DNA of 21,944 bases from a virus, in IMG/VR virus record IMGVR_UViG_3300019886_000029, positions 1 through 21,944 of that record; one strand, written 5' to 3'. The notes below the pieces were generated by a model that was given only the letters and a program-made list of their open reading frames with translations, searched no databases and was not told where the DNA came from. Positions 2,078-8,880 of the stretch are shown here, in pieces (within the stretch, counting starts at the first letter, position 1; each line of letters starts with the position of its first letter). The position numbers and the translations under genes were made by a program.

Positions 2078-2962
2078 TCATTTTTTCTCCCAGTATCTAT
2101 TTTTAAGTGTGTTTCTAAGATAGCCTATAATGTTAGGAATTGTTTGGTTCTTAGCTTTTTTCTTTTTTAGTTGCTGTTCAGTGTACATGGATGCTTGATA
2201 AATATCATCAGAAGAATAAGTTTCGACAAAATAAGTAGCTGTTTTAAGATCGCATCCTATTTGCAAAAACCAATTGCAAGCACGCGCTTTTTTATCAACC
2301 AAAACAGAATCTTCTTTATTTAAAAAACAACCAACAACAGAATCGGCGCAAGCCGTGGGTTGTTGTTCTTTAGACAAAGGGTTTTTATTGTTAGGGTTGT
2401 TATTAGGTTCATGTGGTGAACCTGCCTCCCCTTGGGCAGATTCATGTGGTGAACCTGCCTCCCCTTGGGCAGATTCATGTGGTGAACCTGCCTCTACTTT
2501 TTGATATTTTAAAGTTGACATGTAGGCGTTATTGAACCCCCAAATATTTTTAACGGTAATGATGTGACTTGGGGATTTATTGACGCATTTGTCGTTTTTG
2601 AAGTTTGCTTTTTTAGATTCGACGACTGTTATTAAAGGAGTGTTGTTGAGTTGATGGAAATTTTGTTGGAGTTCTTTTTTAGCATTAACCACAGAACCTA
2701 CTGACATGCCACAAAGCTCGGCTAATCCATCTGTATCTCGCCAACATTTACCCCTGTCCCCTGCCGTTTGTTTGATTACTCGATATAATTCTCTAGCCAC
2801 TAAGCTCAGTTTTCTAACCTCTTTTTTGCCGTCTTTGTCTATAAAATCGTATGTAAGATAAGAAATTAAGTGAGGAATCATACAATAAAATGAAGGTTCT
2901 TCATTTTCTAAATGTATTGCGTAAAGTTCTGATGGTGAGATATTTTGTGATTGATTTGACAT
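2078..2962 (-). CDS. Phage replication initiation protein (lambda-O-like, winged-helix)
   Basis: This 294-residue protein has an N-terminal helix-turn-helix region at about 55-100 (ARELYRVIKQ... then CWRDTDGLAELCGMSVGSV...), the arrangement of phage O-type and other HTH replication proteins that bind their origin. A central linker (about 157-195) contains a repeated AGSPHESAQGE unit and a run of Asn. The C-terminal part (about 225-294) is Lys-rich and ends in NIIGYLRNTLKNRYWEKK, a tail type common in these proteins and probably involved in helicase or loader contact. GGGA lies eight bases before the ATG. No helicase-loader gene is visible next to it, so it would have to use host DnaB/DnaC-type factors or a gene outside the window. 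Confidence 0.75.
   Translation of the reverse strand: MSNQSQNISPSELYAIHLENEEPSFYCMIPHLISYLTYDFIDKDGKKEVRKLSLVARELYRVIKQTAGDRGKCWRDTDGLAELCGMSVGSVVNAKKELQQNFHQLNNTPLITVVESKKANFKNDKCVNKSPSHIITVKNIWGFNNAYMSTLKYQKVEAGSPHESAQGEAGSPHESAQGEAGSPHEPNNNPNNKNPLSKEQQPTACADSVVGCFLNKEDSVLVDKKARACNWFLQIGCDLKTATYFVETYSSDDIYQASMYTEQQLKKKKAKNQTIPNIIGYLRNTLKNRYWEKK
2405..2496. repeat. Three 33-bp direct repeats (origin iteron candidates) in the replication gene
   Basis: Repeats start at 2408, 2441 and 2474; the first two are complete (33 bp) and the third is truncated after 23 bp. Each contains TTCATGTGGTGAACC, and in the first copy this is an exact inverted repeat (AGGTTCA at 2405-2411, TGAACCT at 2417-2423, spacer TGTGG). 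Both flanks are AT-rich. Lambda and its relatives place their origin iterons in the middle of gene O, between the DNA-binding and partner-binding domains, which is where these lie. A pure protein-level repeat expansion is the alternative. Confidence 0.6.
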
Positions 2963-3024
2963 AGCATTTCCCTATTAAGTTAAATTTTAATAGAAAAGAA
3001 CCGCTGATTTTCTTAGGGAAACAA

Positions 3025-3102
3025 TTGAACTTATATCGGAAGTGTTGTATAAATATAGGTCTTTACGTTATATTTATCTTAGCTTATCCGATATAAGTTT
3101 AA
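3025..3102. promoter_or_regulatory. 78-bp dyad with two face-to-face promoters
   Basis: An exact 13-bp inverted repeat (AACTTATATCGGA at 3028-3040, TCCGATATAAGTT at 3087-3099) encloses a second one (ATAAATATA at 3049-3057, TATATTTAT at 3069-3077) with nearly the same centre. The left half reads as a plus promoter: TTGAAC (3025-3030), 17 bp, TATAAA (3048-3053). The right half reads as a minus promoter: TTAAAC (3102-3097), 18 bp, GATAAA (3078-3073). In both, the TTATATCGGA element lies between the -35 and -10 boxes, as an operator would. The minus promoter would give the replication gene a ~100-nt leader. The rest of 2963-3024 shows only its ribosome-binding site and the CCGCTGATTTT repeat. Confidence 0.55.
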
Positions 3103-3172
3103 GAGATCCTAAGAGAGTATCATTGCCTGGTTCCTCTCTTTATTAGAGCCTCACTTCGGTGAGGCTTTTTTT
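3060..3172 (+). ncRNA. Probable small RNA (about 113 nt)
   Basis: A strong plus-strand terminator at 3147-3172 has no plus-strand gene upstream: everything from 1065 to the terminator is coded on the minus strand or non-coding. A promoter-like pair (TTGAAC/TATAAA) predicts a start near 3060. The predicted transcript has a 7-bp stem (AAGAGAG 3111-3117, CTCTCTT 3134-3140) with a 16-nt loop, followed by the terminator hairpin, a typical regulatory RNA layout. Its first few bases would be antisense to the 5' leader of the replication mRNA. No reading frame of note lies in it. The 5' end and existence rest on inspection only. Confidence 0.5.
3147..3172 (+). terminator. Rho-independent terminator
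   Basis: AGCCTCAC (3147-3154), tetraloop TTCG, GTGAGGCT (3159-3166) and a run of seven T from 3166 to 3172. This is a textbook plus-strand terminator with a UUCG loop. In the other orientation no T-run follows the stem. Confidence 0.9.
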
Positions 3173-3200
3173 ATTTACGTTACTGTCTTTCGAGTTTCTT

Positions 3201-3497
3201 TTAAACATGTTTGTTCTTGTCTCGGCAAAAAGAATGCATTTCAATGCCCTCTAGTTCCTTAACTTCGTGACCTAGCACTTTTATAAGTAAAGAGTCATTT
3301 GATCGCTCTGTGGTCAAAATAAAGCCTCTTTTTTCCAACATAGCAAGATACCGCTCTGTTATTGGCGCATTTCCATTAAAAATCACAGCCCCTTCTACCG
3401 AACAAAGGCATATTTTATAGTAGAGGGATGAGACAATCGGTAGTATTACATCTAGTCTAAGCAAGCATTTTTCACAATGTGATATATAGATTTCCAT
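3201..3497 (-). CDS. Unknown Cys-containing protein
   Basis: This protein has 98 residues if it starts at the ATG at 3497 (MEIYISHCEKC...), which is preceded by AAGGGGG. An ATG at 3521 adds MKKKARGN but has its AAGGA too close to the start. The N-terminus has HCEKC and the C-terminus HSFC, so a metal-binding fold is possible. The middle (APITERYLAMLEKRGFILTTER) looks like a winged-helix type helix-turn-strand segment with residues suited to DNA contact; that is an inference, and no family is recognised. It is separated from the replication gene by the control region, so it probably belongs to a separate minus-strand unit upstream. Confidence 0.55.
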   Translation of the reverse strand: MEIYISHCEKCLLRLDVILPIVSSLYYKICLCSVEGAVIFNGNAPITERYLAMLEKRGFILTTERSNDSLLIKVLGHEVKELEGIEMHSFCRDKNKHV

Positions 3498-3556
3498 ATT
3501 CCCCCTTGCTTTTTTCTTCATAATCCTTCAAAACTTTATTTTAATCGAGGTAAAAT

Positions 3557-3667
3557 ATGAAACAGGTTTTGACAGAGATATTTCAAGATAAGTATGTGAA
3601 ATGGTGGACAGTGATAGCCACAACCCTGATATTTTTAATTGTGTTGTCATCTTATTTTATTCAGTGA
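3557..3667 (+). CDS. 36-residue single-span membrane peptide
   Basis: A GAGG Shine-Dalgarno at 3547-3550 lies six bases before the ATG. The peptide has a charged amphipathic start (MKQVLTEIFQDKYVKWW) and one hydrophobic span (TVIATTLIFLIVLSSYFI), ending in Gln. It fills the gap between two minus-strand genes and overlaps the repressor's 3' end by 11 bases in the opposite direction. Short single-span peptides like this include type I toxins, holin-like peptides and small regulators of membrane proteases. The sequence does not decide. No clear promoter was found in the 35 bases upstream. Confidence 0.55.
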   Translation: MKQVLTEIFQDKYVKWWTVIATTLIFLIVLSSYFIQ

Positions 3668-3845
3668 ACCAATCTTTGGGTTTAACTTTTCCTTTTGTCA
3701 ATTCCTGAATCTTTAAAATAGTTTCTTTTCTTGGCATTGTTTTTCCCTTTGTCCAGTTGCTAAACTGTTGTTTTGATACATCACAAAGCTTAGCAAAATA
3801 TGTTGATGTATATCTTTCTAGCTTCAAGTACTCTATGAGTTTCAT
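3657..3845 (-). CDS. Small Cro/YdaS-like repressor (HTH)
   Basis: This 62-residue protein is essentially one helix-turn-helix domain: LKLERYTSTYFAKLCDV, then SKQQFSNWTKGKTMPRK as recognition helix region, then ETILKIQELTKGKVKPKDW, the typical C-terminal end of Cro/YdaS proteins. The longer frame from 3893 would start within the palindrome at 3887-3900 and adds a Cys/Asn/Lys-rich leader, so the ATG at 3845 is preferred although its Shine-Dalgarno is weak. It is divergent from the recombination operon at 3954 and probably binds the palindromes between them. There is no C-terminal peptidase domain, so it is Cro-like and not a full CI. Confidence 0.75.
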   Translation of the reverse strand: MKLIEYLKLERYTSTYFAKLCDVSKQQFSNWTKGKTMPRKETILKIQELTKGKVKPKDWFTE

Positions 3846-3886
3846 AAAAATTAATCTTTTTTTATTATTTTTGTTGCATAAATAAC

Positions 3887-3939
3887 ATGACATGTGTCAT
3901 TATCATATCTTAACAAGATAGCAATAACAGCACTATAAG
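3887..3939. promoter_or_regulatory. Operators and rightward promoter of the recombination operon
   Basis: Two different exact palindromes lie between the divergent repressor and the operon: ATGACA-TG-TGTCAT at 3887-3900 and TATCTT-AAC-AAGATA at 3906-3920. A plus promoter is readable as TTAACA (3910-3915), 18 bp, TATAAG (3934-3939). Its -35 box lies inside the second palindrome, so binding there would block it. A predicted start near 3946 would leave a nearly leaderless mRNA; an additional upstream start is therefore possible. A -10-like GATAAT is present in the minus direction for the repressor. Confidence 0.5.
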
Positions 3940-3953
3940 TAAAGGAAAATATC

Positions 3954-4292
3954 ATGACAGCATTCACAACACCAAAACAAATGTTTCGAGAATATCAGTT
4001 GGATGCTCATTTTGATTATATGGCAGATAGACAAGATAAAGAAAGTCAAACACTTAAAGAAATGGATGTATACGCAAAAGAAGCTGTAAGAAAAATTGAA
4101 CATTATTGCGAATTGATAGCAGAAGCTTATGTTGATGGTTGCAAAATGGCAACAAAACTATGGGAATCTAAAGGTCTAAAAATGGTACATGCTTACGCAG
4201 TTTTAGATGATTTGGTGGATTTTCTTCTAGCATTTGATGATACAGAAAGAAATGATCCCGATTGGGATATTGATGGTTACGATGGCGAATAA
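3954..4292 (+). CDS. Unknown acidic protein, first gene of the recombination operon
   Basis: This 112-residue protein has a helical middle (EAVRKIEHYCELIAEAYVDGCKMATKLWESKG) and a strongly acidic C-terminus (FDDTERNDPDWDIDGYDGE). It has AAGGA seven bases before the ATG. It sits immediately upstream of Bet and could be a recombination or replication accessory protein, or a nuclease inhibitor such as lambda Gam, which is also small and helical and is placed next to Bet/Exo. There is no sequence motif to confirm a Gam-like role, so that is an inference from position only. Confidence 0.65.
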   Translation: MTAFTTPKQMFREYQLDAHFDYMADRQDKESQTLKEMDVYAKEAVRKIEHYCELIAEAYVDGCKMATKLWESKGLKMVHAYAVLDDLVDFLLAFDDTERNDPDWDIDGYDGE

Positions 4293-4316: not shown

Positions 4317-5138
4317 ATGACAACATTAGCAAAAATAGAAAAATTTCAACCTGCAACATCACATTTTAGTAATGAGCAGGTTGATCTTATCAAAAATAGC
4401 ATTTGCAAAGGTGCAACCAATGAAGAACTGCAGTTCTTTTTAATGGCTTGCCAAAGATCAGGGCTTGATCCTTTTGCCAAACAAATTTACTCTGTTCCAC
4501 GCGGTGGACAAAGAACTATTCAAACTAGTGTTGATGGATTTCGTTTGATAGCTGATAGAACTGGTAAATATGCGCCAGGAAAAGAGCCAACTTTCGAATA
4601 TGATAAGAATGGTAATTTGATTTCAGCTACATCATATGTAATGAAACAGACAAAAGATGGGACTTGGCATGAAGTTTCAGCCAACGCTTGCTTTAATGAA
4701 TATAATGCAGGATCTCCCCTATGGAAGAAAATGCCAAGAGCTATGTTAAGTAAATGTGCTGAATGTTTAGCTTTACGTAAAAGTTTCCCTGCTGAAATGA
4801 GCGGATTATATGGACAAGAAGAAATGGATCAGGCGGATAAAGCTGATCATGTAAAACCGCTTTACATTTCAGATAATCAACCTAAACTTTTAATGTCTTT
4901 AGACGAAAAACAGAGAGATGAACTTATGCAGTTATTTGAAGGCTGTTCCGAAGATGCAAAGAAAGGCATCATATCTGTTATAATGAATAAATTTAAAGTT
5001 AAAGATATTTTAGATTTATATTATTCACAATATGATTGGATTAGAGGACTTTTGGTTGAAAGATATAAACACAATCAATCAATTTTGTTAGAAAAAGAAA
5101 TGGCCATCAAGGGTGATGAAGTTGAGGTGTTAGAATGA
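4317..5138 (+). CDS. bet: Bet-type single-strand annealing recombinase
   Basis: This 273-residue protein belongs to the RecT/Redbeta annealing superfamily, Bet branch (lambda Beta is 261). Family signatures visible are NEELQFFLMACQRSGLDPFAKQIY (about 36-59), GQRTIQTSVDGFRLIADRTGKYAP (about 64-87) and the basic-aromatic WKKMPRAMLSKCAECLALRKSFP (about 138-160). It anneals complementary single strands during phage recombination and repair, acting on the tails made by the partner exonuclease. That partner is encoded directly downstream and overlaps it by four bases (ATGA). The C-terminal 70 residues (about 200-273) are divergent, as is usual for the species-specific partner contact. Confidence 0.92.
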   Translation: MTTLAKIEKFQPATSHFSNEQVDLIKNSICKGATNEELQFFLMACQRSGLDPFAKQIYSVPRGGQRTIQTSVDGFRLIADRTGKYAPGKEPTFEYDKNGNLISATSYVMKQTKDGTWHEVSANACFNEYNAGSPLWKKMPRAMLSKCAECLALRKSFPAEMSGLYGQEEMDQADKADHVKPLYISDNQPKLLMSLDEKQRDELMQLFEGCSEDAKKGIISVIMNKFKVKDILDLYYSQYDWIRGLLVERYKHNQSILLEKEMAIKGDEVEVLE

Positions 5139-7319: not shown

Positions 7320-7895
7320 ATGGCTACGTTTAGAAATGTGAAAGGGAAATTTCACGCTATAATAAGAAGAAAAAATAAATCTTTATCAGCTACTTTTTCG
7401 GATAAACAAACTGCTGAAATTTGGAGTAAATATCATGAAGATTTAATAGATAATATGGATAATTTTCAAGTATCACCAGAAAATTATATTACTTATGAAC
7501 AATGTTTAGAATTAAAAATTCAAGATGCTATTGAAAATAATATAGATAAACGAAGTATTGAGGATTTAAAAAATAGTGTAAATCATTTTAATGAAATTAA
7601 AGATATACCTATCGGTGAAATTACTTGCGATATTTTAAGAGAATTGGTTTCAAAAATGCAAAATAGCGTTGTTAAAAAAGGTGGGTCAAAGGAGAATATA
7701 AATTCTGGTAACATTAGAAAAATTTCCCAAACGACAATTTTAAATAGATTAAGATTATTAGCCTGCGTTTTTTCGTATATGATACAAAATGGCGCTAATA
7801 TGACAAATCCTGCACAAATAATAGTGAACCAAGTAAAAATGTCTATTTCCAAAAAAGATGATTCTTTAGATGATTCTTTAGATGACGATGAATAA
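7320..7895 (+). CDS. Tyrosine-recombinase N-half without catalytic domain
   Basis: This 191-residue protein has an arm-type DNA-binding domain start (FRNVKGKFHAIIRRKNKSL, then FSDKQTAEIWSKYHEDLID; about 4-44) and a SAM-like core-binding domain (about 55-170) ending in the standard SQTTILNRLRLLACVFSYM and GANMTNP. An integrase would continue with about 170 residues bearing R...HxxR...Y, but here the protein ends in an acidic tail, DDSLDDSLDDDE, encoded by a small tandem repeat. It is not frameshifted into a neighbour: the next frame is a separate gene. It has a good ribosome-binding site (AAGGGAAAAT), so it is probably a stable gene and not a recent wreck. It may bind att-like DNA without cutting it. 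Confidence 0.7.
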   Translation: MATFRNVKGKFHAIIRRKNKSLSATFSDKQTAEIWSKYHEDLIDNMDNFQVSPENYITYEQCLELKIQDAIENNIDKRSIEDLKNSVNHFNEIKDIPIGEITCDILRELVSKMQNSVVKKGGSKENINSGNIRKISQTTILNRLRLLACVFSYMIQNGANMTNPAQIIVNQVKMSISKKDDSLDDSLDDDE

Positions 7896-8312: not shown

Positions 8313-8555
8313 ATGAAAAAAATATGTGTTCTCGAAAGAGGTTGGGTTTTAGTGGGAAATTTGGAAAAAGAAAATGATGAGTATTTTTTAACAAATGCAT
8401 TTGTTATTAGGCGTTGGGGTACTACAGAAGGTCTTGGCGAGCTAGCAGAAAAAGGGCCATTGCCTGAAACAAAATTAGAAAAAACTCCATTAATTAGGTT
8501 TAATAAACAACAATTAATTTTAACAATTTCTTGTAATGAGGAAAAATGGAAATAA
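8313..8555 (+). CDS. DUF6948-like small phage protein
   Basis: This 80-residue protein has the hallmark core VLERGWVLVGNLEKE, then TNAFVIRRWGTTEGLGELAEKGP, and CNEEKW at the end, matching what I recall of a conserved phage family (DUF6948). Its function is unknown. The compact beta-rich pattern suggests a small barrel. AGGA lies five bases before the ATG. It overlaps the repeat protein downstream, and I recall that homologues are often placed next to Gly-rich low-complexity proteins; I cannot check that here. Confidence 0.65.
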   Translation: MKKICVLERGWVLVGNLEKENDEYFLTNAFVIRRWGTTEGLGELAEKGPLPETKLEKTPLIRFNKQQLILTISCNEEKWK

Positions 8556-8740
8556 TGGATTTACGAACTAATGGCGATGGCTATGGCTATGGCGATGGCT
8601 ATGGCTATGGCGATGGCTATGGCTATGGCTATGGCTATGGCGATGGCGATGGCGATGGCGATGGCTATGGCTATGGCTATGGCGATGGCAGTGGCTATGG
8701 CAGTGGCTATGGCGATGGCTATGGCGATGGCAGTGGCTAG
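8546..8740 (+). CDS. Gly-Asp/Tyr/Ser dipeptide-repeat protein
   Basis: This 64-residue protein is a short head (MEIMDLRTN) followed by 27 Gly-X dipeptides, X being Asp, Tyr or Ser, and a last Gly. The stop TAG follows a GGC codon, so the gene ends as a mutated repeat unit (GGCTAT to GGCTAG). There is a GAGG four bases before the ATG at 8546; the ATG at 8555 is an alternative. Tyr-rich Gly repeats make flexible or phase-separating segments, and alternating Asp could bind metal. The function is unknown. Only this frame has a ribosome-binding site and closes cleanly at the repeat end. Confidence 0.6.
   Translation: MEIMDLRTNGDGYGYGDGYGYGDGYGYGYGYGDGDGDGDGYGYGYGDGSGYGSGYGDGYGDGSG
8573..8737. repeat. 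Hexanucleotide tandem array (27.5 units of GGCNNT)
   Basis: The array is made of GGCTAT, GGCGAT and GGCAGT units. Every Gly codon is GGC, with no third-base drift, which points to recent expansion by slippage or unequal recombination in a genome that is otherwise AT-rich. All three plus-strand frames stay open through it, giving Gly-X, Met-Ala and Trp-Arg/Leu repeats. A 6-bp unit keeps the frame, so copy-number change alters length without breaking the gene. Confidence 0.9.
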
Positions 8741-8763
8741 ATTTACAGAAATGAAAGGTGAAG

Positions 8764-8880
8764 ATGGGTGAATGGATGAAAATTAACTCTGCACCAAAAG
8801 ATGGTACAGATATATTGTGTTATGAGGATGGTGTCCAATTTGTCTGTTGCTGGTCAGATTATGAAGATGAAAAGGATTAG
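8764..8880 (+). CDS. Short 'APKDGT' protein
   Basis: This 38-residue frame, below the 60-residue limit, reads MGEWMKINSAPKDGTDILCY... It contains the 'W..I.SAPKDGT.IL' pattern common to a small phage protein family, usually longer and ending in a WWMP-like motif that is absent here, so this copy may be shortened. AGGTGA lies just before the start. It lies between the repeat protein and the next gene. Confidence 0.5.
   Translation: MGEWMKINSAPKDGTDILCYEDGVQFVCCWSDYEDEKD

Follow-up and report, generated by a model that had tools for sequence, protein, structure and literature searches.

A long mirrored segment ahead of a lambda O-like replication gene in uncultured phages: a candidate RNA switch worked by antisense RNA

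The virus record analyzed here, 21,944 bases in length and referred to below as the window, carries on its minus strand a cro-like repressor gene, presumed to be the first gene of an operon that also contains rep, a gene for a lambda O-like replication initiation protein. The elements of this operon are as follows.

2078 to 2962, minus strand: rep, 294 aa, lambda O-like replication initiation protein (Pfam HTH_36, 1.4e-5)
2408 to 2494, no strand assigned: 33-bp tandem repeats inside rep (2.6 copies, 100%), candidate origin iterons
3201 to 3521, minus strand: ORF106, 106 aa, between the cro-like gene and rep, with no family match
3657 to 3893, minus strand: cro-like HTH_3 repressor gene (Pfam HTH_3, 9e-6; PHROG transcriptional repressor, 6e-9)
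3932 to 3960, minus strand: possible promoter of the cro-like/rep operon, CTGTCA-17-TATAGT, a weak match (9/12 consensus positions)

The PHROG assignment of rep to 'replication initiation O-like' is weak in the window (1e-3) and strong in its syntenic homologues. The candidate iterons are located within rep as the lambda iterons are within gene O, and each of the three near-perfect repeats contains the palindrome GGTTCA-TGTGG-TGAACC. Beyond the cro-like gene, the plus strand encodes RecT, a YqaJ exonuclease and a helicase, and in one relative (L006) a DnaC-like loader comes next after rep. The order cro-like gene, ORF, rep, together with the loader of L006, is the cro-cII-O-P order of lambda. 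With the predicted antisense RNA described below placed between the ORF and rep, this order supports read-through of operon transcription into rep. Two palindromes at 3893-3954, ATGACA-TG-TGTCAT and ATCTT-AAC-AAGAT, are candidate operators ahead of the cro-like gene and are unrelated to the repeats discussed below. Elsewhere in the window, a hexameric repeat of the ATGGCT type (8546-8771, about 28 copies) would encode a repeat protein, either Gly-Tyr/Gly-Asp or Met-Ala, and in a 191-aa ORF (7320-7895) the resemblance to a phage integrase is confined to the SAM-like (core-binding) domain, with no obvious catalytic half.

Directly upstream of rep lies a mirrored segment of 155 bases in total, composed of two arms.

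2988 to 3057, no strand assigned: left dyad arm, forming the 3' hairpin arm in the minus-strand rep leader; contains 3025-3040 and 3049-3057
3069 to 3142, no strand assigned: right dyad arm, which becomes the 5' hairpin arm of the rep leader and is where the antisense RNA would pair; contains 3069-3077 and 3087-3102

The initial annotation had described this site as a 78-bp dyad built from a 13-bp outer and a 9-bp inner inverted repeat. Both repeats are present and exact: the 13-mer pairs 3028-3040 with 3087-3099, inside a stretch where 3025-3040 and 3087-3102 are complementary at 15 of 16 positions, and the 9-mer pairs 3049-3057 with 3069-3077. The 78 bp, however, form only the central part of an imperfect dyad that extends further (2988-3057/3069-3142), in which local alignment of the left arm to the reverse-complemented right arm yields 55 identities over 66 aligned positions; the outer blocks gained by extension are GAAAAGAACC/GGTTCCTCTC and TCTTAGG/CCTAAGA. 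Since an exact 13-bp inverted repeat spanning at most 100 bp occurs in 8% of dinucleotide-shuffled 22-kb windows, this repeat by itself is just mildly surprising. The score of the long dyad is higher than in 200 of 200 shuffles and in 294 of 294 same-size windows from its own genome. A search of Rfam identified no known RNA family.

Relatives were collected by RecT searches and an iterated Rep profile, which provided about two dozen loci that share this arrangement and have intergenic regions suitable for analysis. This set is not fully independent, because some loci are closely related (L094/L095, L101/L092 and L088/L107). The window itself has one near-identical twin, L005; the two share 8.9 kb at 99.99% identity. 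None of the loci is represented at DNA level among the annotated phages, where we found neither DNA homology at the site nor a close homologue of the window Rep, and the nearest isolates by RecT or O (Synechococcus S-H1, Microcystis Mae-JY09 and Bacteroides B124-14) are annotated without such a gene arrangement. The genome matches are two MAG contigs labelled Bacteroidetes/Bacteroidales, which are possibly misbinned.

The mirrored segment recurs ahead of the replication initiator gene in about 20 of these related uncultured phages. When its centre is placed at the predicted small-RNA start, the dyad scores at p<=0.025 against shuffles in 21 of 24 RecT-linked loci, and with same-genome windows as control it is significant in 18 of 24 (p<0.02). 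The mean arm-match score is 30 between left and right arms within a locus and 12 between the left arms of different loci. As arms match within loci and differ between them, it is the pairing that is conserved and not the sequence. Conservation of both arms, which the initial annotation had proposed to check in related phages, thus holds for their pairing but not for their sequence. Such turnover of the arms argues against a conserved operator. Furthermore, the arm sequence TTATATCGGA, which had been proposed as an operator shared by two promoters, occurs nowhere else in the record, even with one mismatch allowed. A repressor operator was rejected on these two grounds, namely the lack of further copies and arms that differ in each relative.

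Three predicted plus-strand elements overlap the dyad or adjoin it.

3025 to 3053, plus strand: predicted small-RNA promoter from a PWM scan (-35 TTGAAC at 3025-3030, 17-nt spacer, -10 TATAAA at 3048-3053)
about 3060 to 3172, plus strand: predicted antisense small RNA of about 113 nt, its start taken from the promoter and its end from the terminator
3145 to 3176, plus strand: intrinsic terminator of the small RNA, AGAGCCTCAC-TTCG-GTGAGGCTTT followed by a T-run

Promoters were scored with a simple sigma70 matrix drawn from general knowledge, and transcription starts were picked by hand out of the scan. Each half of the dyad can indeed be read as a sigma70-like promoter, as first annotated, but in the window alone the scores do not rise above shuffles on either strand (plus, p=0.56; minus, p=0.70). 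Over 24 loci, the plus promoters as a set beat dinucleotide shuffles, with a mean p of 0.24 for a null of 0.50 +/- 0.06, whereas the minus promoters stay at the null level (mean p 0.51). A plus-strand terminator is found to the right of the site in all 19 syntenic loci first examined, and the predicted plus RNA measures 56-185 nt in 19/19. Among relatives, this RNA usually starts about 80 nt ahead of rep (64-121 nt), except in L100, whose rep start is probably misassigned. On the minus strand no T-tract follows the terminator stem, which therefore should not stop transcription directed towards rep. Comparison with relatives thus supports the predicted left-arm promoter and its small terminated RNA.

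The same comparison leaves the putative opposing rep promoter unsupported. According to the initial annotation, two face-to-face sigma70 promoters, one for the small RNA and one for rep, would be chosen between by a regulator binding TTATATCGGA or by collision of the polymerases. Promoter-like hexamers do occur in both halves, with the 13-bp arms between the hexamers on either side, and opposing promoters are known in phages, such as pR/pO in lambda (PMC3985674) and pR/pE in phage 186, where pR also interferes with pL (PMC7708051); the claim that such symmetry is unusual among phage switches was therefore overstated. Yet the minus promoters neither recur nor beat shuffles, and the arm sequence is not conserved, so that none of the three proposals, an opposing promoter, polymerase collision and a shared operator, is supported. 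In this respect the dyad differs from the face-to-face switches of the 186/P2 type. A rep mRNA started at 3067, as the mirror-image promoter would have it, is moreover predicted to have a closed ribosome-binding site (RBS; openness 0.12). We consider this arrangement improbable; most likely, the dyad is an RNA switch rather than two promoters firing at each other.

The RNA-level reading involves three elements of the rep leader.

2967 to 2974, minus strand: rep ribosome-binding region, UAGGGAAA on the minus strand; predicted openness 0.49 when free and 0.11 when antisense-bound
3014 to 3021, minus strand: anti-RBS element within the left arm, UUUCCCUA on the minus strand, the exact complement of 2967-2974
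2972 to 2993, minus strand: local RBS hairpin CTATTAA/TTAATAG, read from the sequence

In the predicted fold of the full minus-strand leader, one long hairpin is formed (2992-3139) and the rep RBS is mostly open. In the predicted antisense-bound and truncated-leader folds, the anti-RBS element pairs with the RBS. RBS-proximal hairpins like that at 2972-2993 recur in relatives with changed sequence. Because its predicted start lies in the loop and the left arm lies in its own promoter, the plus RNA covers the right arm and not the left.

Blocking the bases complementary to the antisense RNA lowers the predicted unpaired fraction of the window RBS from 0.49 to 0.11, and none of 100 shuffles shows a change as large. 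Over 18 loci, the mean predicted closure is 0.138, compared with -0.024 +/- 0.021 in shuffles. With a control that preserves the dyad and permutes its base pairs, the value observed over 23 loci is 0.142 vs 0.050 +/- 0.021 (0/80 as high), and the window alone gives p=0.025. Little or no closure is predicted in 6 of the 23 loci (L094, L088, L101, L108, L006 and L093); in this quarter or so of the set, either the starts are misplaced or the mechanism varies. The predicted state also depends on where the leader begins: the RBS is closed for starts at 3067 (0.12) and 3089 (0.10) and open for starts at 3144, 3200 or 3300 (0.47-0.51), all these values coming from thermodynamic folding, which ignores co-transcriptional kinetics and proteins.

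The plus RNA might instead pair directly with the rep RBS through a right-arm segment that copies the anti-RBS element. In some loci (L099, L107, L008, L092 and L091) such duplexes reach unusual stability, and the mean z is -1.5, compared with +0.1 for a control site. No such effect is seen, however, for the window (z -0.2) or for roughly half of the loci, and the perfect match of the antisense RNA to the leader is far longer, so we view direct pairing as an unlikely mode of action. Alternatively, the dyad may act as DNA, in the form of an operator pair, a cruciform or a single-strand origin near rep. Long dyads do occur beside initiator genes in replicons. Wobble-type asymmetry between the strands of the dyad, which would point to function of the minus RNA, was only 30 vs 19 (p=0.15), too slight to serve as proof of RNA function, which leaves room for a DNA-level element. 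Against it, complementarity of the outer arm to the RBS exceeds the dyad-preserving control, the candidate iterons sit elsewhere, within rep, and the position of the dyad tracks the start and terminator of the plus RNA. A role as DNA is, in our estimation, slightly less probable still than the other alternatives.

Our preferred reading, to which we give a probability of roughly 0.6 on evidence that is computational throughout, is that the dyad serves the rep leader as an RNA switch worked by a cis-antisense RNA. Leftward transcription of rep would result from read-through from the upstream cro-like operon. In the leader so produced, the long hairpin (2992-3139) would tie up the anti-RBS element at 3014-3021 and leave the rep RBS open. 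The promoter in the left arm, itself untranscribed, would yield the plus RNA of about 113 nt (approximately 3060-3172), complementary to the loop and right arm only. By pairing with the nascent leader, this RNA would occupy the right arm and free the left one, and the released anti-RBS element would then close the rep RBS, so that less initiator is made. As the antisense dose grows with the number of genome copies, such a switch would act as a brake on replication in the way that plasmids control their copy number, for which antisense RNAs that cause the initiator RBS to be hidden are textbook cases.

The closest parallel is RNAI of plasmid pSK41, an antisense RNA of about 83 nt that is transcribed against the rep leader, roughly 100 nt ahead of the start; once bound, it causes a stem-loop to form in which the rep RBS is hidden, and transcription is not terminated (PMC5703833). 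Likewise, the window and 19 of 19 loci have a predicted counter-transcribed small RNA ended by an intrinsic terminator, and antisense binding is computed to sequester the rep RBS, albeit not at every locus. For an upstream start of the full rep leader, as in pSK41, the operon order fits, the promoter match is weak, and no start inside the dyad is supported. pSK41 is a staphylococcal plasmid with a RepA_N initiator, whereas the window belongs to a tailed phage with a lambda O-like initiator, and no shared sequence is expected. The window further differs in that a single, very long dyad, extending across the antisense promoter, provides the competing pairing, and in the placement of rep within a cro-like operon. 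Given this initiator and host replicon, the proposed switch would work like pSK41 control without being a member of that system.

In the RNAI/repC system of pT181, a pre-emptor competes for an arm that otherwise closes the start region and the antisense RNA tips the balance, the main effect being transcription termination at the stem-loop (PMC5703833). Competition between leader arms decided by an antisense RNA is common to pT181 and the proposed switch. However, the window hairpin at 2972-2993 is A+T-rich, with one G-C pair in its stem and no T-run after it, and no minus-strand terminator is listed there. Without a G+C-rich stem and T-run, termination at this structure is not expected.

In lambda, the OOP RNA is transcribed from pO, convergent with pR (PMC3985674), overlaps cII by 52 bases and targets the cII mRNA (PMC5869508). 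OOP and the predicted window RNA are both short, terminated, antisense to an operon of the cro-cII-O type and started just before O. Lying between ORF106 and the O-like rep, the predicted window RNA (3060-3172) occupies the map position of OOP. This raises the possibility of an OOP-like RNA, placed between the second operon gene and O (PMC5869508, PMC3985674), that is directed against ORF106 in the cII position rather than against rep, with the dyad only giving both RNAs stable structure. The predicted RNA, however, ends at 3172-3176, about 25 nt short of the ORF106 stop (3201), whereas OOP overlaps cII (PMC5869508), and ORF106 has no match to CII or another family. Moreover, OOP starts 11 nt from O with no dyad around its start, and in the same tests lambda has neither a dyad (p=0.55) nor predicted closure of the O RBS by OOP. 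ORF106 is accordingly a doubtful target, and membership of the window RNA in the OOP family was rejected, since lambda fails both the dyad and the RBS tests and the predicted window RNA does not overlap the 3' end of ORF106.

A limited full-text literature search, which does not prove absence, returned no case of a phage initiator leader being controlled by antisense RNA, nor did a keyword search of a recent review of phage small RNAs (PMC12197685). If true, the proposed switch would link plasmid copy control to a lambda-type early operon and suggest concretely what antisense RNAs at the oop position may do. It would also predict, for some twenty lineages of phages, that the fast-evolving arms bring about superinfection incompatibility that is RNA-based and sequence-specific. 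The broadest form of the proposal is that an uncultured tailed-phage lineage controls its O-type initiator by a plasmid-style antisense leader switch at the lambda oop position, and that rapid turnover of the pairing arms may provide each phage with its own RNA-based specificity of copy control or of incompatibility/immunity; we hold the chances of this to be about even.

Individual relatives show further features around the rep leader. In L008 the region is compact (4124-4144): it includes TACAGGTA-CATAT-TACCTGTA, a perfect palindrome, as well as a third half-site next to the rep RBS, and strong pairing with the RBS (z -7.9) is computed for the predicted plus RNA of this locus. In L103, tandem repeats of the GTATTGATCGTATCTC type are located between the rep leader and the terminator (4830-4970), and L156 carries TATAGTATTTG repeats similar to these.
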